A stretch of 64,000 nucleotides of DNA from Diplolepis rosae (lineage: Eukaryota > Arthropoda > Insecta > Hymenoptera > Diplolepididae): contig JAPYXD010000696.1 in NCBI GenBank assembly GCA_030998225.1, forward strand, positions 2,170,001 to 2,234,000. Reading direction: 5' to 3'. Both the position numbers and the translations under genes were made by a program. Below the pieces are notes generated by a model, which did not search any database, was not told the origin of the DNA, and worked only from the letters and a program-made list of their open reading frames with translations. Shown here in pieces: positions 37,533 through 63,166 of this stretch (its first letter is position 1; each line of letters opens with the position of its first letter).

Positions 37533-37533
37533 T

Positions 37534-38462: not shown

Positions 38463-38470
38463 CTCGTCAC
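38463..38470. repeat. 8-bp target duplication of the hAT element, left copy
   Basis: CTCGTCAC directly precedes the terminal repeat CAGTGTCTCC. The same eight bases follow the other end at 63,159-63,166. An 8-bp duplication is the hallmark of hAT insertion. Confidence 0.9.
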
Positions 38471-39334
38471 CAGTGTCTCCAGAACGTGGGATTTTTCGGC
38501 CTCCACCACGTTCCCATCTGGGAGAAACACATGCAAACGTGGCGTGTCAGTGTGTCGGTTCTGCTACACGCTGCGGTCACCAGCTTCGTGTAAAGCCGAA
38601 GGTGCACGAAGACGGACTTCGTTACAATGCTTGAGTTTTCAAGTTATTTTTAGATTTCACGCTTTCGTTTATCGAGTCGAAATTAAGAATTGTATTTTTC
38701 TCGAGTACGTGCAAAAGAGGCGCGAAGCAGACGACGAATTTGAATTTACGAAGTATATAGTTCAAGAAATAACACTTTTCTTCAATTTCTTGAAGAAAGT
38801 CTGCATGAAATAAACATCAGTATGATCTTGGAAAATTTCATGAGGATTTCAACACTTCAAAAATAAACTTTCAGTGAAATTTAGTGACAATAAATGTATA
38901 AAATTTGAATCAATATATAATTTTCCATTCAAATTTATATACTTCTTACTAATTTTGTACATTTAACAATTTTTCAATTAGAACAATATTTTCTATCAAG
39001 ATAAAATGAACATAAAATTCAAGTTCATAATTTATATTTTCAGTTATATGTTAAAAATATTTTCATCTCACATTTTTGTAGCCTAAGCACAAACTTTTCA
39101 TTCCAAAACTTAAAATCTCTACGGAAATGGAAAATTGACTAATAGCAGTAGATAAATTAAAAAGCTAAAATATGTGTTTATTGGTATTTCCATATTAACA
39201 TATAAATATCAATCAACTTTAAATTTTACATAAAAATGTCCGTTCGAAGTGTTCAAATCTTGTTACAATTTGACAAGATTTTATGGAGGAGTGCAATCTT
39301 TTGGATGAAATATTTTGTAGTTCTTAATTTGTCT
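38471..39334 (+). repeat. Left terminal inverted repeat of the hAT element
   Basis: It reads CAGTGTCTCCAGAACGTGGG inward and stays nearly identical to the reverse complement of the right end until CTTAATTTGTCT. Differences are scattered single bases and small indels. An open frame over its first 340 bp is present in both copies but has no recognisable domain and is probably fortuitous. Confidence 0.9.
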
Positions 39335-40081
39335 ATTTTAAATGTATGAACATTCAAGAAATTGATAAATATTCCATCTTTTTATAGGAACTAAAAATTT
39401 CCGGATAATTCTTTTATTGAGAAAGCTAAAAATTTGTCAAATATTGATATAAATTGCAATTTTACAATTGCATTATTTTTCAAATATTTTAACATCTCTT
39501 CAATCTTAATAATTCTTACAGAAGTTTATTTCATGTGAGTGACTTTTTCTTTTTCTAATGAAAGATTTCGTAATTCTAAATTCGGCCCAATTCGTAACAT
39601 TGTAAAAAGATTTTAAAACTTCATAAAAATTTTTTTTCTGTTTTATTCAAAGTCAATAAATATTCAATGTTTGGAATCGAAATATTAAGTAAATGATTTT
39701 TAATTTCTGGGAATAAACTGCTTTAATAAGACAATCTTTCTTCTTTGTGAGAAATCTCAATTTTAAAATTAAAATTCGACGCATAGGATACAAAAACATA
39801 ATATGAAAATACTTTTATTACAGAATTTTGAAATATACAAGTTGACCAATTTTTATCGAGTAAATCGGCTACTTTAAGCAAAAAATTATGTTAAAAATAT
39901 TTTATCAAAAAAAATAAGACACATTAAATTACGGTTTAAAATCCACATTTATAGATTGATGGTAAAAGCAGTTTAAAGTTTTTTAATCTTACGTTTTAGT
40001 GACGTATGCACAGACTTTTAATCAGATAAATGAAATGCTTTATAGAAAGTCAAAATTTTCTTATTACTGCACTTAATCAAA
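39335..40081. other. hAT internal sequence, left, no gene seen
   Basis: AT-rich. The phrase GTTTTAGTGACGTATGCACA at 39,993 repeats, with divergence, a segment of the terminal repeat at 39,076, giving an internal direct repeat about 0.92 kb apart. Confidence 0.5.
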
Positions 40082-40090
40082 TTTAGAAGA
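40082..40090. repeat. 9-bp target duplication of the inner element, left copy
   Basis: TTTAGAAGA directly abuts the inner terminal repeat starting ATGATATAGAAG. The identical 9 bases follow the other end at 60,338-60,346. A 9-bp duplication is typical of Mutator-like elements, among others. Confidence 0.85.
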
Positions 40091-40434
40091 ATGATATAGA
40101 AGTTTGAGACGTCTCAAACCCAAACTTGTGACGAATTTGAGACGAAAAATAAAGAAAGATTCTCATAAGAGACGGAAATTTATCCCTAGATCAGGTAGCG
40201 AAAAAATACAATAGAAGCAATAAACAATACCTCTATAAATCAAAAGACTTTTATACCTAATTTCGGGATGACACTTACACGCGTACAACCCTTGGGACAC
40301 GCGACAATATTTCGACTTCGAGTTAAATAAAAATTACCGCAAAAAACACTCCTTATATTTTAACCCTACATGTGCGAAGTCCGCGAAGATTGCATATGTG
40401 CATATATGCTATAGGACGAATCGTCTCACAACTT
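40091..40434 (+). repeat. Left end of the inner element, non-satellite part of the inverted repeat
   Basis: The tip holds TTTGAGACGTCTCAAA, a perfect 16-bp palindrome. The rest mirrors 59,999-60,337 with scattered differences. It joins the satellite at a GACGAATCGTCTC junction, the same in both arms. Confidence 0.85.
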
Positions 40435-41542
40435 CTGTCGGACCGCTTGAAGTCGAACTCAAAAGCAGGTAGCAGATCATGACAATGGAAGCAATAAACT
40501 GTACGCGTGGCGTACTCCTAATTGAAAATTAATATTATCCCTCATTAGCCCATGAGATTGAAAATCGTTAAGTTTTCTTGCAAAACACATAATATGAGTG
40601 TCATGCATGAAATCATAAATATTTGAGAAAATCATGCGTCACTTGCATCCAGAAATATGGTTTTTCCATTAGAATTTCTGTATATGCATTTCTGGATTAT
40701 TCAAATTATTTATCAAACAAGTAACTTTTTGAGATTGCGTTACTCTTTGTAAAAGAGTAACATTTCAAGCTCACGTGACTACGGAAGACATGGGGCAAGC
40801 CATCAGTGTTTTGCGAAGGGAACAAGTGTTGGAGCAAACACTAGTGGCATAAAACTGACAGCCGATATGATACGAGACATTTCCAAAACACATGTAATAA
40901 ATTGACTTCGTAGACGGTCGAAAGAAACTATGACGTCCTCCTATTCTTTAAAGTTTTAAATGTCCAGCTGATAGACAAAACCTTAACGAAGCGAAAGAAT
41001 CGTATTAAAAAGTTCGCGTCGAATGGGAAGTTGGTTTTTTATTAAAAAAAAAAATATATAATTTTCGGGAATTTGGGGTCTATTTGAACGTACAATTGCT
41101 CCGAGCTACAACGGCATTTCTGATTCGTAGTTTAGCATGGATGATAAAGCAAAGTTTCAACTTCATATTGCAGAAAAGTATGTCAAGTAAAAGTGCATAG
41201 AACTTGAGATTTTGCTCTTTTCGCAGTTGCATAAATTCGTCTAACTTGCCAGAAATCAAATTTTCTGAATGCCAGATATGAGACGAAAATCGTCTCACAA
41301 CTTCTGTCGGACCGCTTGAAGTCGAACTCAAAAGCAGGTAGCAGATCATGACAATGGATGCAATAAACTGTACGCGTGGCGTACTCCTAATTGAAAATTA
41401 ATATTATCCCTCATTAGCCCATGAGATTGAAAATAGTTAAGTTTTCTTGCAAAACACATAATATGAGTGCCATGCATGAAATCATAAATATTTGAGAAAA
41501 TCATGCGTCACTTGCATTCAGAAATATGGTTTTTCCATTAGA
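40435..41542 (-). repeat. Left arm: 1.3 satellite monomers in minus orientation
   Basis: This is the reverse complement of the satellite in the main array, including all three hairpins. It carries the variant ACTTTTACTTGAC (here on the minus strand at 41,182-41,200), otherwise seen only in monomers at 54.9 and 58.4 kb, so it is related to that subtype. Confidence 0.9.
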
Positions 41543-41622
41543 TTATTTAAAATTTAATGCTTGAACTTGAAGTATTTTTTGCTATGACCTATTTTTTCTG
41601 ATATAAGTATGTACTATAGCCA
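41543..41622. other. 80-bp pivot between the inverted arms
   Basis: This short AT-rich sequence is unlike either the monomer or the termini and marks the switch from minus to plus monomers. The first plus monomer beside it is the most diverged of the array. Confidence 0.75.
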
Positions 41623-42351
41623 AATATTTATGATTTCATGCATGACACTAATATTATGTGCTATGCACCAAAACTTAACGATTTTCAATCTCATGGGCTA
41701 ATGAGGGATAATATTAATTTTCAATTAGGAGTACGCCACGCGTACGGTTCATTGCTTCCATTGTCATTATCTACTACCTGCTTTTGAGTTCGACTTCAAG
41801 CGGTCCGACAGAAGTTGTGAGACGATTTTCGTCTCATATCTGGCATTCAGAAAATTTGATTTCTGGCAAGTTAGACGAATTTATGCAACTGCGAAAAGAG
41901 CAAAATCTCAAGTTCTATGCACATTTACATGACATACTTTTCTGCAATATGAAGTTGAAACTTTGCTTTATCATCCATGCTAAACTACGAATCAGAAATG
42001 CCATTGTAGCTCGGAGCAATTGAGCGTTCAAATAGACCCCAAATTCCAGAAAATTATATATTTTTTTTTAATAAAAAACCAACTTCCCATTCGACGCGAA
42101 CTTTTTAATACGATTCTTTCGCTTCGTTAAGGTTTTGTCTATCAGCTGGAGATTTAAAACTTTAAAGAATAGGAGGACGTCATAGTTTTTTTCGACCGTC
42201 TACGAAGTCAATTTATTACATGAGTTTTGGAAATGTCTCGTACCATATCGGCAGTCAGTTTTATGCCACTAGTGTTTGCTCCAACACTTGTTCCCTTCGC
42301 AAAACACTGATGGCTTGCCCCATGTCTTCCGTAGTCACGTGAGCTTGAAAT

Positions 42352-42374
42352 GTTACTCTTTTACAAAGAGTAAC
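42352..42374. repeat. Hairpin 1 of the monomer (GTTACTCTTT/AAAGAGTAAC)
   Basis: Ten-base perfect arms around TAC. It is present once per monomer and is almost invariant; the copies near 54.46 and 57.94 kb carry a single change in one arm (ACTGTTTTAC). Confidence 0.9.
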
Positions 42375-42597
42375 GCAATCTCAAAAAGTTACTTGTTTGA
42401 TAAATAATTTGAATAATCCAGAAATGCATATACAGAAATTCTAATGGAAAAACCATATTTCTGAATGCAAGTGACGCATGATTTTCTCAAATATTTATGA
42501 TTTCATGCATGACACTCATATTATGTGTTTTGCAAGAAAACTTAACGATTTTCAATCTCATGGGCTAATGAGGGATAATATTAATTTTCAATTAGGA

Positions 42598-42612
42598 GTA
42601 CGCCACGCGTAC
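42598..42612. repeat. Hairpin 2 of the monomer (GTACGC-CAC-GCGTAC)
   Basis: Six-base perfect arms around CAC, once per monomer. One copy near 55.58 kb has GTGTAC on one side. Confidence 0.9.
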
Positions 42613-42685
42613 AGTTTATTGCTTCCATTGTCATGATCTGCTACCTGCTTTTGAGTTCGACTTCAAGCGGTCCGACAGAAGTTGT

Positions 42686-42702
42686 GAGACGATTTTCGTC
42701 TC
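42686..42702. repeat. Hairpin 3 of the monomer (GAGACGA-TTT-TCGTCTC)
   Basis: Seven-base perfect arms around TTT, eight with the flanking T/A. The GAGACG word is shared with the palindromic tip of the inner element, and the array joins its terminal sequence at this motif. It was conserved in the copies I compared. Confidence 0.9.
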
Positions 42703-45700
42703 ATATCTGGCATTCAGAAAATTTGATTTCTGGCAAGTTAGACGAATTTATGCAACTGCGAAAAGAGCAAAATCTCAAGTTCTATGCACATTTACATGAC
42801 ATACTTTTCTGCAATATGAAGTTGAAACTTTGCTTTATCATCCATGCTAAACTACGAATCAGAAATGCCGTTTAGCTCGGAGCAATTGAGCATTCAAATA
42901 GACCACAAATTCCAGAAAATTTTATATTTTTTTTTTGAATAAAAAACCAACTTACCATTCGACGCGAACTTTTTAATACGATTCTTTCGCTTCGTTAAGG
43001 TTTTGTCTATCAGCTGGACATTTAAAACTTTAAAGAATAGGAGGACGTCATAGTTTTTTTCGACCGTCTACGAAGTCAATTTATTACATGAGTTTTGGAA
43101 ATGTCTCGTACCATATCGGCAGTCAGTTTTATGCCACTAGTGTTTGCTCCAACACTTGTTCCCTTCGCAAAACACTGATGGCTTGCCCCATGTCTTCCGT
43201 AGTCACGTGAGCTTGAAATGTTACTCTTTTACAAAGAGTAACGCAATCTCAAAAAGTTACTTGTTTGATAAATAATTTGAATAATCCAGAAATGCATATA
43301 CAGAAATTGTAATGGAAAAACCATATTTCTGAATGCAAGTGACGCATGATTTTCTCAAATATTTATGATTTCATGCATGACACTCATATTATGTGTTTTG
43401 CAATAAAACTTAACGATTTTTCAATCTCATGGGCTAATGAGGGATAATATTAATTTTCAATTAGGAGTACGCCACGCGTACAGTTTATTGCTTCCATTGT
43501 CATGTTCTGCTACCTGCTTTTGAGTTCGACTTCAAGCGGTCCGACAGAAGTTGTGAGACGATTTTCGTCTCATATCTGGCATTCAGAAAATTTGATTTCT
43601 GGCAAGTTAGACGAATTTATGCAACTGCAAAAAGAGCAAAATCTCAAGTTCTATGCACATTTACATGACATACTTTTCTGCAATATGAAGTTGAAACTTT
43701 GCTTTATCATCCATGCTAAACTACGTATCAGAAATGCCATTGTAGCTCGGAGCAATTGAGCGTTCAAATAGACCCCAAATTCCAGAAAATTATATATTTT
43801 TTTTTTCAATAAAAAACCAACTTCCCATTCGACGCGAACTTTTTAATACGATTCTTTCGCTTCGTAAAGGTTTTTTCTATCAGCTAGAGATTTAAAACTT
43901 TAAAGAATAGGAGGACGTCATAGTTTTTTTCGACCGTCTACGAAGTCAATTTATTACATGAGTTTTGGAAATGTCTCGTATCATATCGGCAGTCAGTTTT
44001 ATGCCACTAGTGTTTGCTCCAACACTTGTTCCCTTCGCAAAACACTGATGGCTTGCCCCATGTCTTCCGTAGTCACGTGAGCTTGAAATGTTACTCTTTT
44101 ACAAAGAGTAACGCAATCTCAAAAAGTTACTTGTTTGATAAATAATTTGAATAATCCAGAAATGCATATACAGAAATTCTAATGGAAAAACCATATTTCT
44201 GAATGCAAGTGACGCATGATTTTCTCAAATATTTATGATTTCATGCATGACACTCATATTATGTGTTTTGCAAGAAAACTTAACGATTTTCAATCTCATG
44301 GGCTAATGAGGGATAATATTAATTTTCAATTAGGAGTACGCCACGCGTACAGTTTATTGCTTCCATTGTCAGGATCTGCTACCTGCTTTTGAGTTCGACT
44401 TCAAGCGGTCCGACAGAAGTTGTGAGACGATTTTCGTCTCATATCTGGCATTCAGAAAATTTGATTTCTGGCAAGTTAGACGAATTTATGCAACGGCGAA
44501 AAGAGCAAAATCTCAAGTTCTATGCACATTTACATGACATACTTTTCTGCAATATGAAGTTGAAACTTTGCTTTATCATCCATGCTAAACTACGAATCAG
44601 AAATGCCATTGTAGCTCGGAGCAATTGAGCGTTCAAATAGACCCCAAATTCCAGAAAATTATATATTTTTTTTTAAATAAAAAACCAACTTACCATTCGA
44701 CGCGAACTTTTTAATACGATTCTTTCGCTTCGTTAAGGTTTTGTCTATCAGCTGGACATTTAAAACTTTAAAGAATAGGAGGACGTCATAGTTTTTTTCG
44801 ACCGTCTACGAAGTCAATTTATTACATGAGTTTTGGAAATGTCTCGTATCATATCGGCAGTCAGTTTTATGCCACTAGTGTTTGCTCCAACACTTGTTCC
44901 CTTCGCAAAACACTGATGGCTTGCCCCATGTCTTCCGTAGTCACGTGAGCTTGAAATGTTACTCTTTTACAAAGAGTAACGCAATCTCAAAAAGTTACTT
45001 GTTTGATAAATAATTTGAATAATCCAGAAATGCATATACAGAAATTCTAATGGAAAAACCATATTTCTGAATGCAAGTGACGCATGATTTTCTCAAATAT
45101 TTATGATTTCATGCATGACACTCATATTATGTGTTTTGCAAGAAAACTTAACGATTTTCAATCTCATGGGCTAATGAGGGATAATATTAATTTTCAATTA
45201 GGAGTACGCCACGCGTACAGTTTATTGCTTCCATTGTCATGATCTGCTACCTGCTTTTGAGTTCGACTTCAAGCGGTCCGACAGAAGTTGTGAGACGATT
45301 TTCGTCTCATATCTGGCATTCAGAAAATTTGATTTCTGGCAAGTTAGACGAATTTATGCAACTGCGAAAAGAGCAAAATCTCAAGTTCTATGCACATTTA
45401 CATGACATACTTTTCTGCAATATGAAGTTGAAACTTTGCTTTATCATCCATGCTAAACTACGAATCAGAAATGCCGTTGTAGCTCGGAGCAATTGAGCAT
45501 TCAAATAGACCACAAATTCCAGAAAATTTTATATTTTTTTTAATAAAAAACCAACTTCCCATTCGACGCGAAATTTTTAATACGATTCTTTCGCTTCGTA
45601 AAGGTTTTCTCTATCAGGTAGAGATTTAAAACTTTAAAGAATAGGAGGACGTCATAGTTTCTTTCGACCGTCTACGAAGTCAATTTATTACATGTGTTTT

Positions 45701-48700
45701 GGAAATGTCTCGTATCATATCGGCAGTCAGTTTTATGCCACTAGTGTTTGCTCCAACACTTGTTCCCTTCGCAAAACACTGATGGCTTGCCCCATGTCTT
45801 CCGTAGTCACGTGAGCTTGAAATGTTACTCTTTTACAAAGAGTAACGCAATCTCAAAAAGTTACTTGTTTGATAAATAATTTGAATAATCCAGAAATGCA
45901 TATACAGAAATTCTAATGGAAAAACCATATTTCTGAATGCAAGTGACGCATGATTTTCTCAAATATTTATGATTTCATGCATGACACTCATATTATGTGT
46001 TTTGCAATAAAACTTAACGATTTTCAATCTCATGGGCTAATGAGGGATAATATTAATTTTCAATTAGGAGTACGCCACGCGTACGGTTTATTGCTTCCAT
46101 TGTCATGATCTGCTACCTGCTTTTTGAGTTCGACTTCAAGCGGTCCGACAGAAGTTGTGAGACGATTTTCGTCTCATATCTGGCATTCAGAAAATTTGAT
46201 TTCTGGCAAGTTAGACGAATTTATGCAACTGCAAAAAGAGCAAAATCTCAAGTTCTATGCACATTTACATGACATACTTTTCTGCAATATGAAGTTGAAA
46301 CTTTGCTTTATCATCCATGCTAAACTACGTATCAGAAATGCCATTGTAGCTCGGAGCAATTGAGCGTTCAAATAGACCTCAAATTCCAGAAAATTATATA
46401 TTTTTTTTTGAATAAAAAACCAACTTCCCATTCGACGCGAACTTTTTAATACGATTCTTTCGCTTCGTAAAGGTTTTTTCTATCAGCTAGAGATTTAAAA
46501 CTTTAATGAATAGGAGGACGTCATAGTTTTTTTCGACCGTCTACGAAGTCAATTTATTACATGAGTTTTGGAAATGTCTCGTATCATATCGGCAGTCAGT
46601 TTTATGCCACTAGTGTTTGCTCCAACACTTGTTCCCTTCGCAAAACACTGATGGCTTGCCCCATGTCTTCCGTAGTCACGTGAGCTTGAAATGTTACTCT
46701 TTTACAAAGAGTAACGCAATCTCAAAAAGTTACTTGTTTGATAAATAATTTGAATAATCCAGAAATGCATATACAGAAATTCTAATGGAAAAACCATATT
46801 TCTGAATGCAAGTGACGCATGATTTTCTCAAATATTTATGATTTCATGCATGACACTCATATTATGTGTTTTGCAAGAAAACTTAACGATTTTCAATCTC
46901 ATGGGCTAATGAGGGATAATATTAATTTTCAATTAGGAGTACGCCACGCGTACAGTTTATTGCTTCCATTGTCAGGATCTGCTACCTGCTTTTGAGTTCG
47001 ACTTCAAGCGGTCCGACAGAAGTTGTGAGACGATTTTCGTCTCATATCTGGCATTCAGAAAATTTGATTTCTGGCAAGTTAGACGAATTTATGCAACGGC
47101 GAAAAGAGCAAAATCTCAAGTTCTATGCACATTTACATGACATACTTTTCTGCAATATGAAGTTGAAACTTTGCTTTATCATCCATGCTAAACTACGAAT
47201 CAGAAATGCCATTGTAGCTCGGAGCAATTGAGCGTTCAAATAGACCCCAAATTCCAGAAAATTATATATTTTTTTTTAAATAAAAAACCAACTTACCATT
47301 CGACGCGAACTTTTTAATACGATTCTTTCGCTTCGTTAAGGTTTTGTCTATCAGCTGGACATTTAAAACTTTAAAGAATAGGAGGACGTCATAGTTTTTT
47401 TCGACCGTCTACGAAGTCAATTTATTACATGAGTTTTGGAAATGTCTCGTATCATATCGGCAGTCAGTTTTATGCCACTAGTGTTTGCTCCAACACTTGT
47501 TCCCTTCGCAAAACACTGATGGCTTGCCCCATGTCTTCCGTAGTCACGTGAGCTTGAAATGTTACTCTTTTACAAAGAGTAACGCAATCTCAAAAAGTTA
47601 CTTGTTTGATAAATAATTTGAATAATCCAGAAATGCATATACAGAAATTCTAATGGAAAAACCATATTTCTGAATGCAAGTGACGCATGATTTTCTCAAA
47701 TATTTATGATTTCATGCATGACACTCATATTATGTGTTTTGCAAGAAAACTTAACGATTTTCAATCTCATGGGCTAATGAGGGATAATATTAATTTTCAA
47801 TTAGGAGTACGCCACGCGTACAGTTTATTGCTTCCATTGTCATGATCTGCTACCTGCTTTTGAGTTCGACTTCAAGCGGTCCGACAGAAGTTGTGAGACG
47901 ATTTTCGTCTCATATCTGGCATTCAGAAAATTTGATTTCTGGCAAGTTAGACGAATTTATGCAACTGCGAAAAGAGCAAAATCTCAAGTTCTATGCACAT
48001 TTACATGACATACTTTTCTGCAATATGAAGTTGAAACTTTGCTTTATCATCCATGCTAAACTACGAATCAGAAATGCCGTTGTAGCTCGGAGCAATTGAG
48101 CGTTCAAATAGACCCCAAATTCCAAAAAATTTTTTATATTTTTTTTTTAATAAAATACAAACTTACCATTCGACGCGAACTTTTTAATACGATTCTTTCG
48201 CTTCGTAAAGGTTTTCTCTATCAGTTAGAGATTTAAAACTTTAAAGAATAGGAGGACGTCATAGTTTCTTTCGACCGTCTACGAAGTCAATTTATTACAT
48301 GTGTTTTGGAAATGTCTCGTATCATATCGGCAGTCAGTTTTATGCCACTAGTGTTTGCTCCAACACTTGTTCCCTTCGCAAAACACTGATGGCTTGCCCC
48401 ATGTCTTCCGTAGTCACGTGAGCTTGAAATGTTACTCTTTTACAAAGAGTAACGCAATCTCAAAAAGTTACTTGTTTGATAAATAATTTGAATAATCCAG
48501 AAATGCATATACAGAAATTCTAATGGAAAAACCATATTTCTGAATGCAAGTGACGCATGATTTTCTCAAATATTTATGATTTCATGCATGACACTCATAT
48601 TATGTGTTTTGCAAGAAAACTTAACGATTTTCAATCTCATGGGCTAATGAGGGATAATATTAATTTTCAATTAGGAGTACGCCACGCGTACAGTTTATTG

Positions 48701-51700
48701 CTTCCATTGTCATGATCTGCTACCTGCTTTTGAGTTCGACTTCAAGCGGTCCGACAGAAGTTGTGAGACGATTTTCGTCTCATATCTGGCATTCAGAAAA
48801 TTTGATTTCTGGCAAGTTAGACGAATTTATGCAACTGCGAAAAGAGCAAAATCTCAAGTTCTATGCACATTTACATGACATACTTTTCTGCAATATGAAG
48901 TTGAAACTTTGCTTTATCATCCATGCTAAACTACGAATCAGAAATGCCGTTTAGCTCGGAGCAATTGAGCATTCAAATAGACCACAAATTCCAGAAAAAA
49001 CCAACTTCCCATTCGACGCGAACTTTTTAATACGATTCTTTCGCTTCGTTAAGGTTTTGTCTATCAGCTGGAGATTTAAAACTTTAAAGAATAGGAGGAC
49101 GTCATAGTTTTTTTTTCGACCGTCTACGAAGTCAATTTATTACATGAGTTTTGGAAATGTCTCGTATCATATCGGCAGTCAGTTTTATGCCACTAGTGTT
49201 TGCTCCAACACTTGTTCCCTTCGAAAAACACTGATGGCTTGCCCCATGTCTTCCGTAGTCACGTGAGCTTGAAATGTTACTCTTTTACAAAGAGTAACGC
49301 AATCTCAAAAAGTTACTTGTTTGATAAATAATTTGAATAATCCTGAAATGCATATACAGAAATTCTAATGGAAAAACCATATTTCTGAATGCAAGTGACG
49401 CATGATTTTCTCAAATATTTATGATTTCATGCATGACACTCATATTATGTGTTTTGCAAGAAAACTTAACGATTTTCAATCTCATGGGCTAATGAGGGAT
49501 AATATTAATTTTCAATTAGGAGTACGCCACGCGTACAGTTTATTGCTTCCATTGTCATGATCTGCTACCTGCTTTTGAGTTCGACTTCAAGCTGTCCGAC
49601 AGAAGTTGTGAGACGATTTTCGTCTCATATCTGGCATTCAGAAAATTTGATTTCTGGCAAGTTAGACGAATTTATGTAACTGCGAAAAGAGCAAAATCTC
49701 AAGTTCTATGCACATTTACATGACATACTTTTCTGCAATATGAAGTTGAAACTTTGCTTTATCATCCATGCTAAACTACGAATCAGAAATGCCGTTTAGC
49801 TCGGAGCAATTGAGCATTCAAATAGACCACAAATTCCAGAAAATTTTATATTTTTTTTTTGAATAAAAAACCAACTTACCATTCGACGCGAACTTTTTAA
49901 TACGATTCTTTCGCTTCGTTAAGGTTTTGTCTATCAGCTGGAGATTTAAAACTTTAAAGAATAGGAGGACGTCATAGTTTTTTTCGACCGTCTACGAAGT
50001 CAATTTATTACATGAGTTTTGGAAATGTCTCGTATCATATCGGCAGTCAGTTTTATGCCACTAGTGTTTGCTCCAACACTTGTTCCCTTCGCAAAACACT
50101 GATGGCTTGCCCCATGTCTTCCGTAGTCACGTGAGCTTGAAATGTTACTCTTTTACAAAGAGTAACGCAATCTCAAAAAGTTACTTGTTTGATAAATAAT
50201 TTGAATAATCCAGAAATGCATATACAGAAATTCTAATGGAAAAACCATATTTCTGAATGCAAGTGACGCATGATTTTCTCAAATATTTATGATTTCATGC
50301 ATGACACTCATATTATGTGTTTTGCAATAAAACTTAACGATTTTCAATCTCATGGGCTAATGAGGGATAATATTAATTTTCAATTAGGAGTACGCCACGC
50401 GTACAGTTTATTGCTTCCATTGTCATGATCTGCTACCTGCTTTTGAGTTCGACTTCAAGCGGTCCGACAGAAGTTGTGAGACGATTTTCGTCTCATATCT
50501 GGCATTCAGAAAATTTGATTTCTGGCAAGTTAGACGAATTTATGCAACTGCAAAAAGAGCAAAATCTCAAGTTCTATGCACATTTACATGACATACTTTT
50601 CTGCAATATGAAGTTGAAACTTTGCTTTATCATCCATGCTAAACTACGTATCAGAAATGCCATTGTAGCTCGGAGCAATTGAGCGTTCAAATAGACCCCA
50701 AATTCCAGAAAATTATATATTTTTTTTTTAATAAAAAACCAACTTCCCATTCGACGCGAACTTTTTAATACGATTCTTTCGCTTCGTAAAGGTTTTTTCT
50801 ATCAGCTAGAGATTTAAAACTTTAAAGAATAGGAGGACGTCATAGTTTTTTTCGACCGTCTACGAAGTCAATTTATTACATGAGTTTTGGAAATGTCTCG
50901 TATCATATCGGCAGTCAGTTTTATGCCACTAGTGTTTGCTCCAACACTTGTTCCCTTCGCAAAACACTGATGGCTTGCCCCATGTCTTCCGTAGTCACGT
51001 GAGCTTGAAATGTTACTCTTTTACAAAGAGTAACGCAATCTCAAAAAGTTACTTGTTTGATAAATAATTTGAATAATCCAGAAATGCATATACAGAAATT
51101 CTAATGGAAAAACCATATTTCTGAATGCAAGTGACGCATGATTTTCTCAAATATTTATGATTTCATGCATGACACTCATATTATGTGTTTTGCAAGAAAA
51201 CTTAACGATTTTCAATCTCATGGGCTAATGAGGGATAATATTAATTTTCAATTAGGAGTACGCCACGCGTACAGTTTATTGCTTCCATTGTCAGGATCTG
51301 CTACCTGCTTTTGAGTTCGACTTCAAGCGGTCCGACAGAAGTTGTGAGACGATTTTCGTCTCATATCTGGCATTCAGAAAATTTGATTTCTGGCAAGTTA
51401 GACGAATTTATGCAACGGCGAAAAGAGCAAAATCTCAAGTTCTATGCACATTTACATGACATACTTTTCTGCAATATGAAGTTGAAACTTTGCTTTATCA
51501 TCCATGCTAAACTACGAATCAGAAATGCCATTGTAGCTCGGAGCAATTGAGCGTTCAAATAGACCCCAAATTCCAGAAAATTATATATTTTTTTTTAATA
51601 AAAAACCAACTTACCATTCGACGCGAACTTTTTTAATACGATTCTTTCGCTTCGTTAAAGGTTTTGTCTATCAGCTGGACATTTAAAACTTTAAAGAATA

Positions 51701-54700
51701 GGAGGACGTCATAGTTTTTTTCGACCGTCTACGAAGTCAATTTATTACATGAGTTTTGGAAATGTCTCGTATCATATCGGCAGTCAGTTTTATGCCACTA
51801 GTGTTTGCTCCAACACTTGTTCCCTTCGCAAAACACTGATGGCTTGCCCCATGTCTTCCGTAGTCACGTGAGCTTGAAATGTTACTCTTTTACAAAGAGT
51901 AACGCAATCTCAAAAAGTTACTTGTTTGATAAATAATTTGAATAATCCAGAAATGCATATACAGAAATTCTAATGGAAAAACCATATTTCTGAATGCAAG
52001 TGACGCATGATTTTCTCAAATATTTATGATTTCATGCATGACACTCATATTATGTGTTTTGCAAGAAAACTTAACGATTTTCAATCTCATGGGCTAATGA
52101 GGGATAATATTAATTTTCAATTAGGAGTACGCCACGCGTACAGTTTATTGCTTCCATTGTCATGATCTGCTACCTGCTTTTGAGTTCGACTTCAAGCGGT
52201 CCGACAGAAGTTGTGAGACGATTTTCGTCTCATATCTGGCATTCAGAAAATTTGATTTCTGGCAAGTTAGACGAATTTATGCAACTGCGAAAAGAGCAAA
52301 ATCTCAAGTTCTATGCACATTTACATGACATACTTTTCTGCAATATGAAGTTGAAACTTTGCTTTATCATCCATGCTAAACTACGAATCAGAAATGCCGT
52401 TGTAGCTCGGAGCAATTGAGCATTCAAATAGACCACAAATTCCAGAAAATTTTATATTTTTTTTAATAAAAAACCAACTTCCCATTCGACGCGAAATTTT
52501 TAATACGATTCTTTCGCTTCGTAAAGGTTTTCTCTATCAGGTAGAGATTTAAAACTTTAAAGAATAGGAGGACGTCATAGTTTCTTTCGACCGTCTACGA
52601 AGTCAATTTATTACATGTGTTTTGGAAATGTCTCGTATCATATCGGCAGTCAGTTTTATGCCACTAGTGTTTGCTCCAACACTTGTTCCCTTCGCAAAAC
52701 ACTGATGGCTTGCCCCATGTCTTCCGTAGTCACGTGAGCTTGAAATGTTACTCTTTTACAAAGAGTAACGCAATCTCAAAAAGTTACTTGTTTGATAAAT
52801 AATTTGAATAATCCAGAAATGCATATACAGAAATTCTAATGGAAAAACCATATTTCTGAATGCAAGTGACGCATGATTTTCTCAAATATTTATGATTTCA
52901 TGCATGACACTCATATTATGTGTTTTGCAAGAAAACTTAACGATTTTCAATCTCATGGGCTAATGAGGGATAATATTAATTTTCAATTAGGAGTACGCCA
53001 CGCGTACAGTTTATTGCTTCCATTGTCATGATCTGCTACCTGCTTTTGAGTTCGACTTCAAGCGGTCCGACAGAAGTTGTGAGACGATTTTCGTCTCATA
53101 TCTGGCATTCAGAAAATTTGATTTCTGGCAAGTTAGACGAATTTATGCAACTGCAAAAAGAGCAAAATCTCAAGTTCTATGCACATTTACATGACATACT
53201 TTCCTGCAATATGAAGTTGAAACTTTGCTTTATCATACATGCTAAACTACGAATCAGAAATGCCGTTTAGCTCGGAGCAATTGAGCATTCAAATAGACCA
53301 CAAATTCCAGAAAAAACCAACTTCCCATTCGACGCGAACTTTTTAATACGATTCTTTCGCTTCGTTAAGGTTTTGTCTATCAGCTGGAGATTTAAAACTT
53401 TAAAGAATAGGAGGACGTCATAGTTTTTTTCGACCGTCTACGAAGTCAATTTATTACATGAGTTTTGGAAATGTCTCGTATCATATCGGCAGTCAGTTTT
53501 ATGCCACTAGTGTTTGCTCCAACACTTGTTCCCTTCGAAAAACACTGATGGCTTGCCCCATGTCTTCCGTAGTCACGTGAGCTTGAAATGTTACTCTTTT
53601 ACAAAGAGTAACGCAATCTCAAAAAGTTACTTGTTTGATAAATAATTTGAATAATCCAGAAATGCATATACAGAAATTCTAATGGAAAAACCATATTTCT
53701 GAATGCAAGTGACGCATGATTTTCTCAAATATTTATGATTTCATGCATGACACTCATATTATGTGTTTTGCAAGAAAACTTAACGATTTTCAATCTCATG
53801 GGCTAATGAGGGATAATATTAATTTTCAATTAGGAGTACGCCACGCGTACAGTTTATTGCTTCCATTGTCATGATCTGCTACCTGCTTTTGAGTTCGACT
53901 TCAAGCGGTCCGACAGAAGTTGTGAGACGATTTTCGTCTCATATCTGGCATTCAGAAAATTTGATTTCTGGCAAGTTAGACGAATTTATGTAACTGCGAA
54001 AAGAGCAAAATCTCAAGTTCTATGCACATTTACATGACATACTTTTCTGCAATATGAAGTTGAAAGTTTGCTTTATCATCCATGCTAAACTACGAATCAG
54101 AAATGCCGTTTAGCTCGGAGCAATTGAGCATTCAAATAGACCACAAATTCCAGAAAATTTTATATTTTTTTTTTTGAATAAAAAACCAACTTACCATTCG
54201 ACGCGAACTTTTTAATACGATTCTTTCGCTTCGTTAAGGTTTTGTCTATCAGCTGGACATTTAAAACTTTAAAGAATAGGAGGACGTCATAGTTTTTTTC
54301 AACCGTCTACGAAGTCAATTTATTACATGAGTTTTGGAAATGTCTCGTATCATATCGGCAGTCAGTTTTATGCCACTAGTGTTTGCTCCAACACTTGTTC
54401 CCTCCGCAAAACACTGATGGCTTGCCCCATGTCTTCTGTAGTCACGTGAGTTTGAAATGTTACTGTTTTACAAAGAGTAACGCAATCTCAAAAAGTTACT
54501 TGTTTGATAAATAATTTGAATAATCCAGAAATGCATATACAGAAATTCTAATGGAAAAACCATATTTCTGAATGCAAGTGACGCATGATTTTCTCAAATA
54601 TTTATGATTTCATGCATGACACTCATATTATGTGTTTTGCAAGAAACCTTAACGATTTTCAATCTCATGGGCTAATGAGGGATAATATTAATTTTCAATT

Positions 54701-57700
54701 AAGAGTACGCCACGCGTACAGTTTATTGCTTCCATTGTCATGATCTGCTACCTGCTTTTGAGTTCGACTTCAAGCGGTCCGACAGAAGTTGTGAGACGAT
54801 TTTCGTCTCATATCTGGCATTCAGAAAATTTGATTTCTGGCAAGTTAGACGAATTTATGCAACTGCGAAAAGAGCAAAATCTCAAGTTCTATGCACTTTT
54901 ACTTGACATACTTTTCTGCAATATGAAGTTGAAACTTTGCTTTATCATCCATGCTAAACTACGAATCAGAAATGCCATTGTAGCTCGGAGCAATTGAGCG
55001 TTCAAATAGACCCCAAATTCCAGAAAATTTTATATTTTTTTTTTCAATAAAAAAACAACTTCCCATTCGACGCGAACTTTTTAATACGATTCTTTCGCTT
55101 CGTAAAGGTTTTTTCTATCAGCTAGAGATTTAAAACTTTAAAGAATAGGAGGACGTCATAGTTTTTTTCGACCGTCTACGAAGTCAATTTATTACATGTG
55201 TTTTGGAAATGTCTCGTATCATATCGGCAGTCAGTTTTATGCCACTAGTGTTTGCTCCAACACTTGTTCCCTTCGCAAAACACTGATGGCTTGCCCCATG
55301 TCTTCCGTAGTCACGTGAGCTTGAAATGTTACTCTTTTACAAAGAGTAACGCAATCTCAAAAAGTTACTTGTTTGATAAATAATTTGAATAATCCAGAAA
55401 TGCATATACAGAAATTCTAATGGAAAAACCATATTTCTGAATGCAAGTGACGCATGATTTTCTCAAATATTTATGATTTCATGCATGACACTCATATTAT
55501 GTGTTTTGCAAGAAAACTTAACGATTTTCAATCTCATGGGCTAATGAGGGATAATATTAATTTTCAATTAGGAGTACGCCACGTGTACAGATTATTGCTT
55601 CCATTGTCATGATCTGCTACCTGCTTTTGAGTTCGACTTCAAGCGGTCCGACAGAAGTTGTGAGACGATTTTCGTCTCATATCTGGCATTCAGAAAATTT
55701 GATTTCTGGCAAGTTAGACGAATTTATGCAACTGCAAAAAGAGCAAAATCTCAAGTTCTATGCACATTTACATGACATACTTTTCTGCAATATGAAGTTG
55801 AAACTTTGCTTTATCATCCCTGCTAACGTACGAATCAGAAATGCCGTTGTAGCTCGGAGCAATTGAGCATTCAAATAGACCACAAATTCCAGAAAATTTT
55901 ATATTTTTATTTTAATAAAAAACCAACTTCCCATTCGACGCGAAATTTTTAATACGATTCTTTCGCTTCGTAAAGGTTTTTCTCTATCAGGTAGAGATTT
56001 AAAACTTTAAAGAATAGGAGGACGTCATAGTTTCTTTCGACCGTCTACGAAGTCAATTTATTACATGTGTTTTGGAAATGTCTCGTATCATATCGGCAGT
56101 CAGTTTTATGCCACTAGTGTTTGCTCCAACACTTGTTCCCTTCGCAAAACACTGATGGCTTGCCCCATGTCTTCCGTAGTCACGTGAGCTTGAAATGTTA
56201 CTCTTTTACAAAGAGTAACGCAATCTCAAAAAGTTACTTGTTTGATAAATAATTTGAATAATCCAGAAATGCATATACAGAAATTCTAATGGAAAAACCA
56301 TATTTCTGAATGCAAGTGACGCATGATTTTCTTAAATATTTATGATTTCATGCATGACACTCATATTATGTGTTTTGCAAAAAAAACTTAACGATTTTCA
56401 ATCTCATGGGCTAATGAGGGATAATATTAATTTTCATTTAGGAGTACGCCACGCGTACGGTTTATTGCTTCCATTGTCATGATCTGCTACCTGCTTTTGT
56501 GTTCGACTTCAAGCGGTCTGACAGAAGTTGTGAGACGATTTTCGTCTCATATCTGGCATTCAGAAAATTTGATTTCTGGCAAGTTAGACGAATTTATGCA
56601 ACTGCGAAACGAGCAAAATCTCAAGTTCTATGCACATTTACATGACATACTTTTCTGCAATATGAAGTTGAAACTTTGCATTATCATCCATGCTAAACTA
56701 CGAATCAGAAATGCCGTTGTAGCTCGGAGCAATTGAGCTTTCAAAATAGACCCCAAATTCCAGAAATTTATATAGATTTTTTGTAATAAAAAACCAACTT
56801 CCCATTCGACGCGAACTTTTTAATACGATTCTTTCGCTTCGTTAAGGTTTTGTCTATCAGCTGGAGATTTAAAACTTTAAAGAATAGGAGGACGTCATAG
56901 TTTTTTTCGACCGTCTACGAAGTCAATTTATTACATGAGTTTTGGAAATGTCTCGTATCATATCGGCAGTCAGTTTTATGCCACTAGTGTTTGCTCCAAC
57001 ACTTGTTCCCTTCGAAAAACACTGATGGCTTGCCCCATGTCTTCCGTAGTCACGTGAGCTTGAAATGTTACTCTTTTACAAAGAGTAACGCAATCTCAAA
57101 AAGTTACTTGTTTGATAAATAATTTGAATAATCCAGAAATGCATATACAGAAATTCTAATGGAAAAACCATATTTCTGAATGCAAGTGACGCATGATTTT
57201 CTCAAATATTTATGATTTCATGCATGACACTCATATTATGTGTTTTGCAAGAAAACTTAACGATTTTCAATCTCATGGGCTAATGAGGGATAATATTAAT
57301 TTTCAATTAGGAGTACGCCACGCGTACGGTTTATTGCTTCCATTGTCATGATCTGCTACCTGCTTTTGAGTTCGACTTCAAGCGGTCCGACAGAAGTTGT
57401 GAGACGATTTTCGTCTCATATCTGGCATTCAGAAAATTTGATTTCTGGCAAGTTAGACGAATTTATGTAACTGCGAAAAGAGCAAAATCTCAAGTTCTAT
57501 GCACATTTACATGACATACTTTTCTGCAATATGAAGTTGAAAGTTTGCTTTATCATCCATGCTAAACTACGAATCAGAAATGCCGTTTAGCTCGGAGCAA
57601 TTGAGCATTCAAATAGACCACAAATTCCAGAAAATTTTATATTTTTTTTTTGAATAAAAAACCAACTTACCATTCGACGCGAACTTTTTAATACGATTCT

Positions 57701-59998
57701 TTCGCTTCGTTAAGGTTTTGTCTATCAGCTGGACATTTAAAACTTTAAAGAATAGGAGGACGTCATAGTTTTTTTCGACCGTCTACGAAGTCAATTTATT
57801 ACATGAGTTTTGGAAATGTCTCGTATCATATCGGCAGTCAGTTTTATGCCACTAGTGTTTGCTCCAACACTTGTTCCCTTCGCAAAACACTGATGGCTTG
57901 CCCCATGTCTTCTGTAGTCACGTGAGTTTGAAATGTTACTGTTTTACAAAGAGTAACGCAATCTCAAAAAGTTACTTGTTTGATAAATAATTTGAATAAT
58001 CCAGAAATGCATATACAGAAATTCTAATGGAAAAACCATATTTCTGAATGCAAGTGACGCATGATTTTCTCAAATATTTATGATTTCATGCATGACACTC
58101 ATATTATGTGTTTTGCAAGAAAACTTAACGATTTTCATACTCATGGGCTAATGAGGGATAATATTAATTTTCAATTAAGAGTACGCCACGCGTACAGTTT
58201 ATTGCTTCCATTGTCATGATCTGCTACCTGCTTTTGAGTTCGACTTCAAGCGGTCCGACAGAAGTTGTGAGACGATTTTCGTCTCATATCTGGCATTCAG
58301 AAAATTTGATTTCTGGCAAGTTAGACGAATTTATGCAACTGCGAAAAGAGCAAAATCTCAAGTTCTATGCACTTTTACTTGACATACTTTTCTGCAATAT
58401 GAAGTTGAAACTTTGCTTTATCATCCATGCTAAACTACGAATCAGAAATGCCGTTTAGCTCGGAGCAATTGAGCATTCAAATAGACCACAAATTCCAGAA
58501 AATTATATATTTTTTTTTTTAATAAAAAACCAACTTCCCATTCGACGCGAACTTTTTAATACGATTCTTTCGCTTCGTAAAGGTTTTCTCTATCAGCTAG
58601 AGATTTAAAACTTTAAAGAATAGGAGGACGTCATAGTTTTTTTCAACCGTCTATGAAGTCAATTTATTACATGAGTTTTGGAAATGTCTCGTATCATATC
58701 GGCAGTCAGTTTTATGCCACTAGTGTTTGCTCCAACACTTGTTCCCTTCGCAAAACACTGATGGCTTGCCCCATGTCTTCCGTAGTCACGTGAGCTTGAA
58801 ATGTTACTCTTTTACAAAGAGTAACGCAATCTCAAAAAGTTACTTGTTTGATAAATAATTTGAATAATCCAGAAATGCATATACAGAAATTCTAATGGAA
58901 AAACCATATTTCTGAATGCAAGTGACGCATGATTTTCTCAAATATTTATGATTTCATGCATGACACTCATATTATGTGTTTTGCAAGAAAACTTAACGAT
59001 TTTCAATCTCATGGGCTAATGAGGGATAATATTAATTTTCAATTAGGAGTACGCCACGCGTACGGTTTATTGCTTCCATTGTCATGATCTGCTACCTGCT
59101 TTTGAGTTCGACTTCAAGCGGTCAGACAGAAGTTGTGAGACGATTTTCGTCTCATATCTGGCATTCAGAAAATTTGATTTCTGGCAAGTTAGACGAATTT
59201 ATGCAACTGCAAAAAGAGCAAAATCTCAAGTTCTATGCACATTTACATGACATACTTTTCTGCAATATGAAATTGAAACTTTGCTTTATCATCCATGCTA
59301 AACTACGAATCAGAAATGCCGTTGTAGCTCGGAGCAATTGAGCATTCAAATAGACCACAAATTCCAGAAAATTTTATATTTTTTTAATAAAAAACCAACT
59401 TCCCATTCGACGCGAAATTTTTAATACGATTCTTTCGCTTCGTAAAGGTTTTCTCTATCAGCTAGAGATTTAAAACTTTAAAGAATAGGAGGACGTCATA
59501 GTTTCTTTCGACCGTCTACGAAGTCAATTTATTACATGTGTTTTGGAAATGTCTCGTATCATATCGGCAGTCAGTTTTATGCCACTAGTGCTTGCTCCAA
59601 CACTTGTTCCCTTCGCAAAACACTGATGGCTTGCCCCATGTCTTCCGTAGTCACGTGAGCTTGAAATGTTACTCTTTTACAAAGAGTAACGCAATCTCAA
59701 AAAGTTACTTGTTTGATAAATAATTTGAATAATCCAGAAATGCATATACAGAAATTCTAATGGAAAAACCATATTTCTGAATGCAAGTGACGCATGATTT
59801 TCTCAAATATTTATGATTTCATGCATGACACTCATATTATGTGTTTTGCAAGAAAACTTAACGATTTTCAATCTCATGGGCTAATGAGGGATAATATTAA
59901 TTTTCAATTAGGAGTACGCCACGCGTACAGTTTATTGCTTCCATTGTCATGATCTACTACCTGCTTTTAGTTCGACTTCAAGCGGCCGACAGAAGTTG

Positions 59999-60337
59999 GG
60001 AGACGATTCGTCCTATAGCACATATGCACATATGCAATCTTCGCGGACTTCGCACATGTAGTGTTAAAATATAAGGTGTGTTTTTTGCGGTCATTTTTTT
60101 TAACTCGAAGTTAATATATTGTCGCGTGTCCCAAGGGTTGCACGCGTGTAAGTGTTATCCCGAAGTTAGGTATCAAAGTCTTTTGATATATAGAGGTATT
60201 GTTTATTGCTCTTATTGTATTTTTTCGTTACCTGATCTAGGGATAAATTTCCGTCACTATGAGAATTTCTTTCTTAATTTCCCGTCTCACAATTCGTCAC
60301 AAGTTTGGGTTTGAGACGTCTCAAACTTCTATATCAT
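59999..60337 (-). repeat. Right end of the inner element, non-satellite part of the inverted repeat
   Basis: Mirror of 40,091-40,434. The satellite is truncated at GGGAGACGATTCGTCC and the sequence runs to CTTCTATATCAT at the terminus. Confidence 0.85.
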
Positions 60338-60346
60338 TTTAGAAGA
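60338..60346. repeat. 9-bp target duplication of the inner element, right copy
   Basis: TTTAGAAGA, identical to 40,082-40,090. Confidence 0.85.
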
Positions 60347-60479
60347 AACTTTAAATGAAATTTTATGTCCATAAATGCTTAAAGTTCTATATAGAAATAT
60401 CAACTACAACATTCTCAAATTTTATAAATAAACTACTAAATTCAAAAAGTTTCGGATTTTTTTAAAAACTGTACAAATT

Positions 60480-60700
60480 TCAAATATGAATCAGTCAAAA
60501 TCTACTGATTATCAGTGAAATTTGACTGATTTAAATAACTAAAAACAGGTTACTGTGAATCAGTCAAATTTCACTGATTACTTCAGTGAAAAGTAACTGA
60601 TTTAACAGTGAAAAATATTGTTTCCACTGATGATTCAGTGAAAAGGCAAATCACTGATTCAATCAGTGAAAATTTGACTGATTCAGATTTAGAGTGTATA
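60480..60700. repeat. Cluster of AATCAGT / ACTGATT words
   Basis: About ten copies of TCAGTGAAA, TGACTGATT and their inverses lie in 220 bp, alternating in orientation and able to form several small hairpins. They lie in hAT sequence just right of the inner element. They could be protein-binding repeats or a short degenerate insertion. Confidence 0.65.
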
Positions 60701-61757: not shown

Positions 61758-62033
61758 CTAAGTGATGCTCGTTGTTCTGGCTGTTTCAGCTCTCGCCTTT
61801 AGGGCTGATCGAGTAACACAAATTGAGTTGACCGTCCTGTTTCCTAAGCGATGTCTTTTGGGAGTTTTCGCGTCCGTGAGCATGGAGAAACCTCGCTCCG
61901 CCTCAGCATTTGAATGAGGAAGACTCCGAACATGATTCAATACTGAGGTCAAATTTGGAAAAAGTTTTTCTCCTGTACTCGTCGAAGATACACCGATACT
62001 AGACCACATTTCGTCAAAAGATAAATTCGACAT
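61758..62033 (-). pseudogene. hAT transposase C-terminal dimerisation domain, remnant
   Basis: The 91-residue frame contains LFPNLTSVLNHVRSLPHSNA and EAERGFSMLTDAKTPKRHRL, followed by a short helix (VNSICVTRSALKA). 'LPHSNAxxERxFS' is the signature of the hAT C-terminal dimerisation region, which holds transposase subunits together. The rest of the transposase should lie at higher coordinates on this strand, but only about 260 bp separate it from the terminal repeat, so the catalytic core is gone. The fragment matches the superfamily implied by the 8-bp duplication. Confidence 0.8.
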
Positions 62034-62295
62034 TTCATTTCATACATTTAAAAAATATCGAATGAAAGAATTATATGCAAAGTATTTTCCATTAAGAAGA
62101 CATAAACATGACATAATTAGTTTTATATCTACATTTTCGGCTTACTTTTTTGTGGCTCAAGCACACATTTTGAATTCGAAATACAAAAATGCTCTACAGA
62201 GTTGAAGTATTTCCTGAATCAATTATTATTGATCCTGAATTCTATTGGAAAATTTGTTGTTTACTGTTCAAAACTTACTGCGATTTCAGAAGGAC

Positions 62296-63158
62296 AGACA
62301 AATTAAGAACTACAAAATATTTCATCCAAAAGATTGCACTCCTCCATATAATCTTGTCAAATTGTAACAAGATTTGAACACTTCGAACCAACATTTTTAT
62401 GTAAAATTTAGTTGATTGATATTTATATGTTAATATGGAAATACTAATAAACACATATTTTAGCTTTTTAATTTATCTACTGCTATTAGACAATTTTCCA
62501 TTTCCGTAGAGATTTTAAGTTTTGGAATGAAAAGTTTGTGCTTAGGCTACAAAAAATGTGAGATGAAAATATTTTTAACATATAACTGAAAATATAAATT
62601 ATGAACTTGAATTTTATGTTCATTTTATCTTGATAGAAAATATTATTCTAATTGAAAAATTGTTAAATGTACAAAATTAGTAAGAAGTATATAAATTTGA
62701 ATGGAAAATTATATATTGATTCAAATTTTATACATTTATTGTCACTAAATTTCACTGAAAGTTTATTTTTGAAGTGTTGAAATCCTCATGAAATTTTCCA
62801 AGATCATACTGATGTTTATTTCATGCAGACTTTCTTCAAGAAATTGAAGAAAAGTGTTATTTCTTGAACTATATACTTCGTAAATTCAAATTCGTCGTCT
62901 GCTTCGCGCCTCTTTTGCACGTACTCGAGAAAAATACAATTCTTAATTTCGACTCGATAAACGAAAGCGTGAAATCTAAAAATAACTTGAAAACTCAAGC
63001 ATTGTAACGAAGTCCGTCTTCGTGCACCTTCGGCTTTACATGAAGCTGGTGACCGCAGCGTGTAGCATAGCCGACACACTGACACGCCACGTTTGCATGT
63101 GTTTCTCCCAGATGGGAACGTGGTGGGGGCCGAAAAATCCCACGTTCTGGAGACACTG
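62296..63158 (-). repeat. Right terminal inverted repeat of the hAT element
   Basis: Reverse complement of 38,471-39,334, ending GGAGACACTG. It is slightly shorter than the left copy because of small indels. It contains the CTGCTTCGCGCC and ACGAAAGCGTGAAATC words also found in the diverged relative at 36.6-36.8 kb. Confidence 0.9.
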
Positions 63159-63166
63159 CTCGTCAC
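63159..63166. repeat. 8-bp target duplication of the hAT element, right copy
   Basis: CTCGTCAC, identical to 38,463-38,470. Confidence 0.9.

Follow-up and report, generated by a model that had tools for sequence, protein, structure and literature searches.

A foldback-type transposon of Diplolepis rosae with satellite-like arms of unequal length

Between positions 40082 and 60346 of a 64,000-nucleotide stretch of the Diplolepis rosae genome (contig JAPYXD010000696.1, positions 2,170,001 to 2,234,000; hereafter the window), head-to-tail monomers of ~868 bp form a palindrome with one short and one very long arm. Is this structure a transposon, and did one of its arms become a satellite by growing after insertion, as an initial annotation of this copy proposed? 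The origin of satellites is an open question, and the genome studied here holds bounded stages ranging from about one monomer per arm to ~24 in one arm.

The element exists as described and is mobile; it is a foldback of a known kind, resembling Tetris of Drosophila virilis. It is distinguished by its 868-bp unit, by arm-specific monomers and by recurrent growth of one arm in many bounded copies. We consider it very probable that it is a foldback-type, non-autonomous DNA transposon, with the order terminal domain A (TERM_A), a few A monomers, a centre, a B array and terminal domain B (TERM_B), that it landed in an older hAT element, and that its array grew by unequal exchange and travelled with it.

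Structure of the element and its copies in the genome

The inner element, so called because a larger element encloses it, is a bounded insertion (40091-60337) of 20.2 kb, or 20.3 kb with its target-site duplications. Its parts are the following:

40082..40090, no strand: left copy of the 9-bp target-site duplication TTTAGAAGA, directly outside the inverted end; it covers an older deletion scar in the host hAT copy
40091..40418, plus strand: terminal domain of type A (TERM_A), with 0 substitutions relative to the A consensus of 18 other copies
40419..41542, minus strand: A arm of 1.28 A-type monomers; the full monomer has 2 substitutions relative to the A-monomer consensus
41543..41620, plus strand: pivot of 78 bp, the remaining edge of the centre according to comparison with other copies; its deletion junction is single in the genome
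41621..60008, plus strand: B arm of 21.22 head-to-tail monomers (~868 bp), all of B type by monomer alignment and tree
60009..60337, minus strand: terminal domain of type B (TERM_B), 93% identical to TERM_A
60338..60346, no strand: right copy of the 9-bp target-site duplication TTTAGAAGA, directly outside the inverted end

The duplicated 9-mer directly flanks inverted ends whose outermost sequences are ATGATATAG...CTATATCAT, as the initial annotation had described. Its dimensions hold up closely: the proposed 1.3 and about 21 monomers, 80-bp pivot, 868-bp unit, 340-bp ends and 9-bp duplication were measured as 1.28, 21.22, 78, 868, ~329 and 9, respectively. The ~329-bp terminal repeats (40091-40419 and 60009-60337) are 93% identical, and the monomers of the B arm are 843-870 bp long. 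As in foldback elements, long inverted terminal repeats thus contain tandem subrepeats. The probability of a 9/9 match at two given points by chance is ~9e-6; a third TTTAGAAGA is found at 60745, which is roughly the chance level for a 9-mer in this AT-rich window, by estimate rather than computation. TERM_A includes a palindrome, GTTTGAGACGTCTCAAAC. The monomers also harbour two perfect hairpins with 3-base loops (at 42352 and in other monomers), GTTACTCTTTTACAAAGAGTAAC and TGAGACGATTTTCGTCTCA, with 19 and 21 exact occurrences in the window, respectively. The existence of a conserved block within the monomer was considered and rejected, as the variable sites are not significantly uneven (Kolmogorov-Smirnov p 0.44).

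We searched the 757.7-Mb assembly, in which the window copy lies on contig C368; other copies are named by contig label. A 29-base end pattern gave, with at most 2 mismatches, 264 + 250 = 514 matches on many contigs, and the reversed control pattern gave 0. If most of these ends are paired, the family would comprise roughly 250 copies. With the left end and arm as the query, at least 79 matches were obtained (best 23 of 998 candidates), and the two end-type queries yielded at least 40 and at least 41 (best 40 of 778 and of 757 candidates). Ends from the A and B queries were paired, together with three ends from earlier searches and minus one partial C427 match. The result was 35 complete elements, between 1.3 and 25.3 kb in size, with 13 ends left unpaired; for two of the latter (C127 and C266), the end-pattern search later supplied a partner.

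Target duplications were checked at 49 end pairs (9 + 25 + 15). The 9-bp flanks are perfect in 42 of them, including C412 with CAAAAATAC on both sides, and match at 8/9 positions in six; in the remaining imperfect pair, C373, the duplication matches only with a shift. The 29 perfect duplications that were tabulated all differ in sequence. The family thus consists of dispersed copies flanked by target-site duplications, another feature of foldback elements. The initial annotation had allowed that no other copy might have these ends, or that the duplication might be a coincidence absent elsewhere. With 514 near-exact ends, 35 paired elements and perfect 9-bp duplications at 42 of 49 pairs, neither doubt persists; the short copies that it anticipated, with about one monomer per arm and 9-bp duplications, are also present (C395, with 0.85 and 1.22 monomers). 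These data also bear on whether the locus is a transposon at all. With 21 monomers of ~868 bp that are about 98% alike, it could have been viewed as a centromere-type satellite containing an inverted junction; for this locus that view is refuted by the exact ends, the 9-bp duplications and the 514 end matches over many contigs.

Five copies (C58, C86, C94, C95 and C138; L092-L095, L098-L099, L102-L105) carry at both ends further types of terminal domains, neither A nor B. Their 9-bp duplications are perfect in three cases and match at 8/9 positions in two, and their sizes go down to 1.0 kb. They can be read as probable older or sister subfamilies. No exact match of the TERM end or the monomer was found in viral contigs, a set from which source-genome records were possibly excluded.

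The pivot became intelligible from a comparison of 19 loci, window included. It is kept in 12 of them, always joined to monomer position 676 of the adjacent arm, and is missing in seven. It represents the edge of a stretch of 104 to 1978 bp between the arms (17 loci). Monomer position 133 is the inner limit of the A arm in 10 of the 19 loci. In the window copy, this arm stops at position 628 and is joined directly to the pivot, so that ~1.9 kb of the centre and ~495 bp or more of the A arm have been lost. With at most 1 mismatch allowed, the junction was found a single time in the genome, in the window copy. The pivot of the window is therefore a 78-bp remnant of a centre that can reach ~1.98 kb, the rest of which was lost by deletion. 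The middle domain expected between foldback arms thus exists, up to 1978 bp elsewhere and 78 bp here. Part of the asymmetry of this copy is due to the same deletion, which took the centre and cut the short arm. The equal phase of the inner arm ends was dropped as proof of integer expansion in the window copy, since the inner end of its A arm is a deletion breakpoint.

The idea that the centre is a transposase gene was ruled out in the one centre read, which has no open reading frame over 81 aa. A relative of part of the centre, 93% identical over 790 bp, adjoins a Mutator-like element (MULE) in C349 (L088:719-2840), with neither a terminal domain nor a monomer nearby in the 9 kb read, so that the foldback centre may be captured DNA.

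Two arm types of unequal length

The B arm is longer in 17 of the 18 copies with both arms measured (sign test p 1.4e-4). Lopsidedness is therefore a family trait, not a peculiarity of the window insertion as had first been supposed. The B arms contain between 1.22 and ~24.2 monomers, the A arms between 1.28 and 4.85. Some of these lengths were partly inferred from coordinates (C195, C94, C412, C418, C426, C127 and C367), and C379 contains a 199-base gap; the set leaves out C395, whose monomer types and ends disagree, C284 (1.3 kb) and 15 pairs with unread interiors. The longest copies are C379 (25.3 kb, ~24.2 B monomers), C313 (22.5 kb, ~20.2), the window copy (20.3 kb) and C182 (18.5 kb, 17.2), all four with perfect duplications, and short ones include C395 (0.85/1.22) and C408 (1.41/2.22). 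Thus, it is mostly the B arm that is long, and the arrays of the copies differ largely by whole monomers.

The two ends are also of distinct types. The consensus A and B end domains differ at 25 positions, plus 2 gaps. The 7% difference between the ends of the window copy did not arise by decay after insertion, since other copies have these A and B sequences too. This recurrence also argues against an assembly artefact, in which the palindrome or the array would stem from hairpin reads or from a collapsed or expanded repeat. Structures of both kinds are notorious for misleading assemblers; however, the 25 substitutions in the ~329-bp consensus are found again in other copies, and the independent C379, C313, C182 and C283 have 10-24 B monomers and perfect duplications. 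We therefore regard an artefact as most improbable.

The monomers follow the same partition. A tree was built from 129 monomers of 11 copies, which were chosen because both of their arms were available and which do not include C395, C398 and C412; one of its clades, with a support of 0.887, holds 21/21 A-arm and 0/108 B-arm monomers. Nine marker sites separate the arms in 99 monomers from 19 loci, with exceptions in C395, C398, C412 and C399; the A arm of the window copy is B-like at 1/9 of these sites. Between copies, the mean numbers of differences per monomer are 13.1 for A-A, 19.0 for B-B and 22.2 for A-B comparisons. Mosaics are found at the ends as well: C283 has one end that combines A and B sequence, and the B end of C395 is in part of this kind. 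Exchange between arms does occur, yet the A/B difference is not erased. In most of the young copies read, each arm has retained a monomer lineage of its own. Such a lasting difference provides a test of the mutual homogenization of long inverted repeats, of which there is little in most young copies read.

The paired ends are mostly unlike. The 35 complete elements, a set biased by the use of A and B queries, consist of 34 A+B pairs and a single A+mosaic pair. Thirteen further convergent pairs, from the listed exact-end matches and typed by eye from marker strings, comprise six A+B, one B+B (17.1 kb), five with both ends of other types and one B+other. The C127 and C283 pairs, picked for other reasons, are both A+B. 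Obligatory pairing of unlike ends, suggested by the 34/35, is ruled out by the B+B and other-type copies with 9-bp duplications. A+B pairing is common in the young subfamily but not required.

Array growth, mobilization and the host hAT element

The copies differ by whole numbers of monomers: with the pivot retained, a B arm has k+0.22 monomers, and with its inner edge complete, an A arm has k+0.85. Within the window copy, monomers R04, R07 and R12 have 0 substitutions between them, R03 and R11 at most 1, and R05 and R13 two; a ~25-bp deletion is common to R09 and R14. R01-R05 are colinear with R09-R13 with 14 differences in total, which was reached by 0/2000 shuffled orders. Such a block duplication is what unequal exchange or slippage over several monomers leaves behind. 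In the 129-monomer tree, the nearest tip lies in the same copy for 63 of the 108 B monomers, with 14% expected. Together, the whole-monomer steps and the block duplication support the view that the arrays probably grew by unequal exchange.

These observations also fit another route, rolling-circle or extrachromosomal-circle amplification, in which excised monomer circles would be amplified and reinserted in multi-monomer jumps. The block duplication (a shift of 8 monomers over 5 monomers) is compatible with it, and whole-monomer steps fit it as well as they fit crossing over. Nevertheless, in 11 copies the monomers sit between the terminal domains, in a single orientation per arm, and we consider circles an unlikely source of the arrays.

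When the growth took place can be judged from the age of the insertion. Relative to the consensus, gaps not counted, the window copy has 0 substitutions in TERM_A (18 other copies), 0 in TERM_B (6 other copies) and 2 in the A monomer. This gives an age proxy of ~0.13% per site (2 substitutions in 1528 bp), with a 95% upper limit of 0.47%. The 21 B monomers of the window form 16 groups at 3 differences or fewer, 12 at 5 and 7 at 8, 8 differences being the upper bound for post-insertion duplicates. For so young an insertion, 16 (still 7) groups mean that some of the array diversity predates it. The element would have arrived with at least about seven B-arm monomer lineages, unless conversion imported diversity.

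It is thus rather improbable that a short symmetric element landed and that one arm grew to 21 monomers entirely in place. Consistent with this scenario, short copies exist (C395 and C408), the identity of R04, R07 and R12 indicates that some growth is recent, and array order across seven copies matches well only for the first ~3 pivot-side monomers, with no long colinearity beyond them. Against it stand the low age proxy relative to the number of monomer groups, and the single substitution between R01 and the pivot-side monomer of C379, indicating that this edge was inherited. The initial proposal that one arm grew by unequal exchange after insertion is therefore retained for the mode of growth, in view of the whole-monomer steps and the R01-R05/R09-R13 block. 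It does not hold as a wholly post-insertion process, because part of the diversity is older than the copy.

A growing and moving element could function as follows. For its insertion, it would rely on a cut-and-paste transposase of another element, most likely an enzyme of Mutator/MULE type, which generates 9-bp duplications. Its monomers, possibly derived from the duplication of part of the terminal domain, would multiply within an arm by unequal exchange or replication slippage, between sister chromatids or homologues or in the course of array repair after excision. The grown array would then move with the element and be remodelled at each site.

The 9-bp target-site duplication is of a length found with Mutator/MULE elements, whose duplications span a wider range than 8-10 bp, and it suggests a Mutator-type transposase. 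For Tetris, a transposase of this type was argued from the 8-10 bp length of the duplications (PMC4079207; for this and all other papers cited, we refer to the accessible parts of the source). The MULE domain PF10551 has 11 matches in the genome. Two MULE elements, L086:3199-5543 and L088:3299-5607, have inverted ends with short tandem repeats (GGACGTTTGCGGCCGGGTTC...), and L086 encodes a 497-aa frame that matches MULE and, weakly, FLYWCH domains. The ends of L086 and L088 are no more similar to TERM_A than shuffled sequence is. Two weak matches were taken as chance, of 16 bp between L087 and TERM_A (E 0.002) and of 46 bp at 76% between L089 and the monomer (E 0.006).

TERM_A and the monomer share 34 bp at 82%. 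The motif GAGACG/CGTCTC occurs four times, partly overlapping, in the outer 84 bp of TERM_A; 53 of its 57 occurrences in the window lie inside the inner element and four outside, and the B array has 22 GAGACG and 21 CGTCTC. Galileo has transposase binding sites at ~70 bp from its end, and its tandem repeats contain further ones (PMC3688188). GAGACG/CGTCTC is a candidate for a repeated transposase-binding site, and monomers bearing it may represent extra binding sites that first favoured duplication.

The element lies within a larger one, as had been annotated. The features of this host are as follows:

38471..39334, plus strand: left arm of the outer hAT, flanked by CTCGTCAC (38463-38470)
62296..63158, minus strand: right arm of the outer hAT, flanked by CTCGTCAC (63159-63166)
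61761..62039, minus strand: remnant of the hAT transposase C-terminus (PF05699, E 4e-7)

The outer element (38471-63158) is itself foldback-like, with inverted arms of 864 and 863 bp that are 98.5% identical and CAGTGTCTCC ends of the CAGTG type, which is typical of hAT. Its 8-bp duplication CTCGTCAC, these ends and the C-terminal transposase remnant identify it as a hAT element. The interior of the hAT, as judged from the flank at 39335-40081, is present in many copies in the genome (best 40 of 283 candidates listed). A segment of ~250 bp that is absent from the window hAT is present in 10/10 other hAT copies, taken from the upper part of the 40 listed. The TTTAGAAGA duplication spans the scar of this ~250-bp deletion; therefore, the hAT deletion came first and the foldback insertion afterwards.

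Further features lie nearby. At 60473-60714, a cluster of TCAGT/ACTGA palindromic repeats between direct repeats ACAAATTTCAAATAT (60473 and 60700) may be a small insertion that produced a duplication of ~15 bp. Just left of the outer hAT, at 35491-36739, are pieces 68-78% similar to it, mostly in inverse orientation. An open frame at 37498-38220 has a reverse transcriptase match below the Pfam cut-off (PF00078), and we would guess that it resembles Penelope-like elements.

Several points weigh against a foldback transposon with two arm-specific arrays that grew by unequal exchange. The A arm is the longer one in C313a (4.85 vs 1.22). Among the 99 monomers from 19 loci, arm specificity is broken or blurred in three copies: C395 has a B-like monomer beside its A end, C398, an old, diverged copy, has B-like monomers on its A side, and the A side of C412 is mixed. 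In addition, C399 has one mosaic monomer. Nor do all copies pair an A with a B end: 7 of the 13 further pairs are B+B or include another end type. No transposase with these ends was found, and the four MULE loci read, of the 11 matches, lack such ends. The 34-bp stretch shared with the monomer is much weaker for TERM_B (73.5%, E 0.65). An empty site with the scar and no insertion gave 0 matches in the assembly (at most 3 mismatches). Finally, unequal exchange is deduced from the pattern of monomers rather than observed between alleles.

A bolder possibility, which we put forward tentatively, is that the family is a mobile two-satellite system, whose arms maintain two separately evolving satellites with one-arm growth, and in which arrays of up to ~24 monomers are born in transposons, moved when partly grown and remodelled at each site. 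In that case, the one-arm bias would reflect a polarity in the replication or the post-excision repair of the element.

Comparison with known foldback elements

Foldback arms with short tandem units, together with 9-bp duplications, are known from the FB elements of Drosophila melanogaster. The initial annotation took known foldbacks to be limited to such short units, which is too narrow: the tandem units are ~220 bp in Tetris (PMC4079207) and ~210 bp in the F subfamily of Galileo (PMC3573991).

Tetris, with its TIR-220 satellite, is a foldback that was already shown to feed a satellite, and a difference in array size between alleles was reported for it (PMC4079207). Like the element described here, it has an outer flanking domain, intermediate tandem repeats and a non-coding middle, with the arrays lying between terminal domains, 8-10 bp duplications and no coding capacity (PMC4079207). 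Its terminal domain and repeat share a stretch of 37 bp at ~80% (PMC4079207), compared with 34 bp at 82% here. This likeness is one of architecture. In contrast, the unit of Tetris is ~220 bp rather than 868 bp, and only three structurally complete copies of it were reported (PMC4079207); here, moreover, the repeats cluster by arm type, with most of the growth in one arm type.

Galileo, a foldback-like element of the P superfamily, also has long inverted repeats, with ~210-bp internal tandem repeats in its F subfamily, and the repeat number can differ between the two ends of one copy, as described in D. mojavensis (PMC3573991). Its repeats contain extra transposase binding sites (PMC3688188). 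Unlike the D. rosae family, it has 7-bp duplications and a P-type transposase; the accessible parts of these sources describe up to three repeats and mention no arm-specific subfamilies (PMC3573991, PMC3688188). The Tm1 Mutator/Foldback elements of root-knot nematodes share mostly 9-bp duplications, composite inverted repeats and unequal repeat numbers between ends, the two ends of an element being on average 93% identical (PMC3169594). They differ by a tandem unit of 13-15 bp, a size of ~1-2.6 kb and a known transposase-encoding member (PMC3169594).

We found no literature report of arm-specific satellite lineages in a foldback with growth mainly in one arm, in a survey that included a 2025 review (PMC12628747, accessible parts), was not aimed exactly at this point and covered subscription journals thinly. 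In D. rosae, bounded copies are available at many stages, most with an intact duplication, and growth can therefore be read copy by copy. Two precedents differ in this respect, Tetris with its three complete copies (PMC4079207) and Galileo with differences in repeat number for which the accessible text mentions no arm lineages (PMC3573991).

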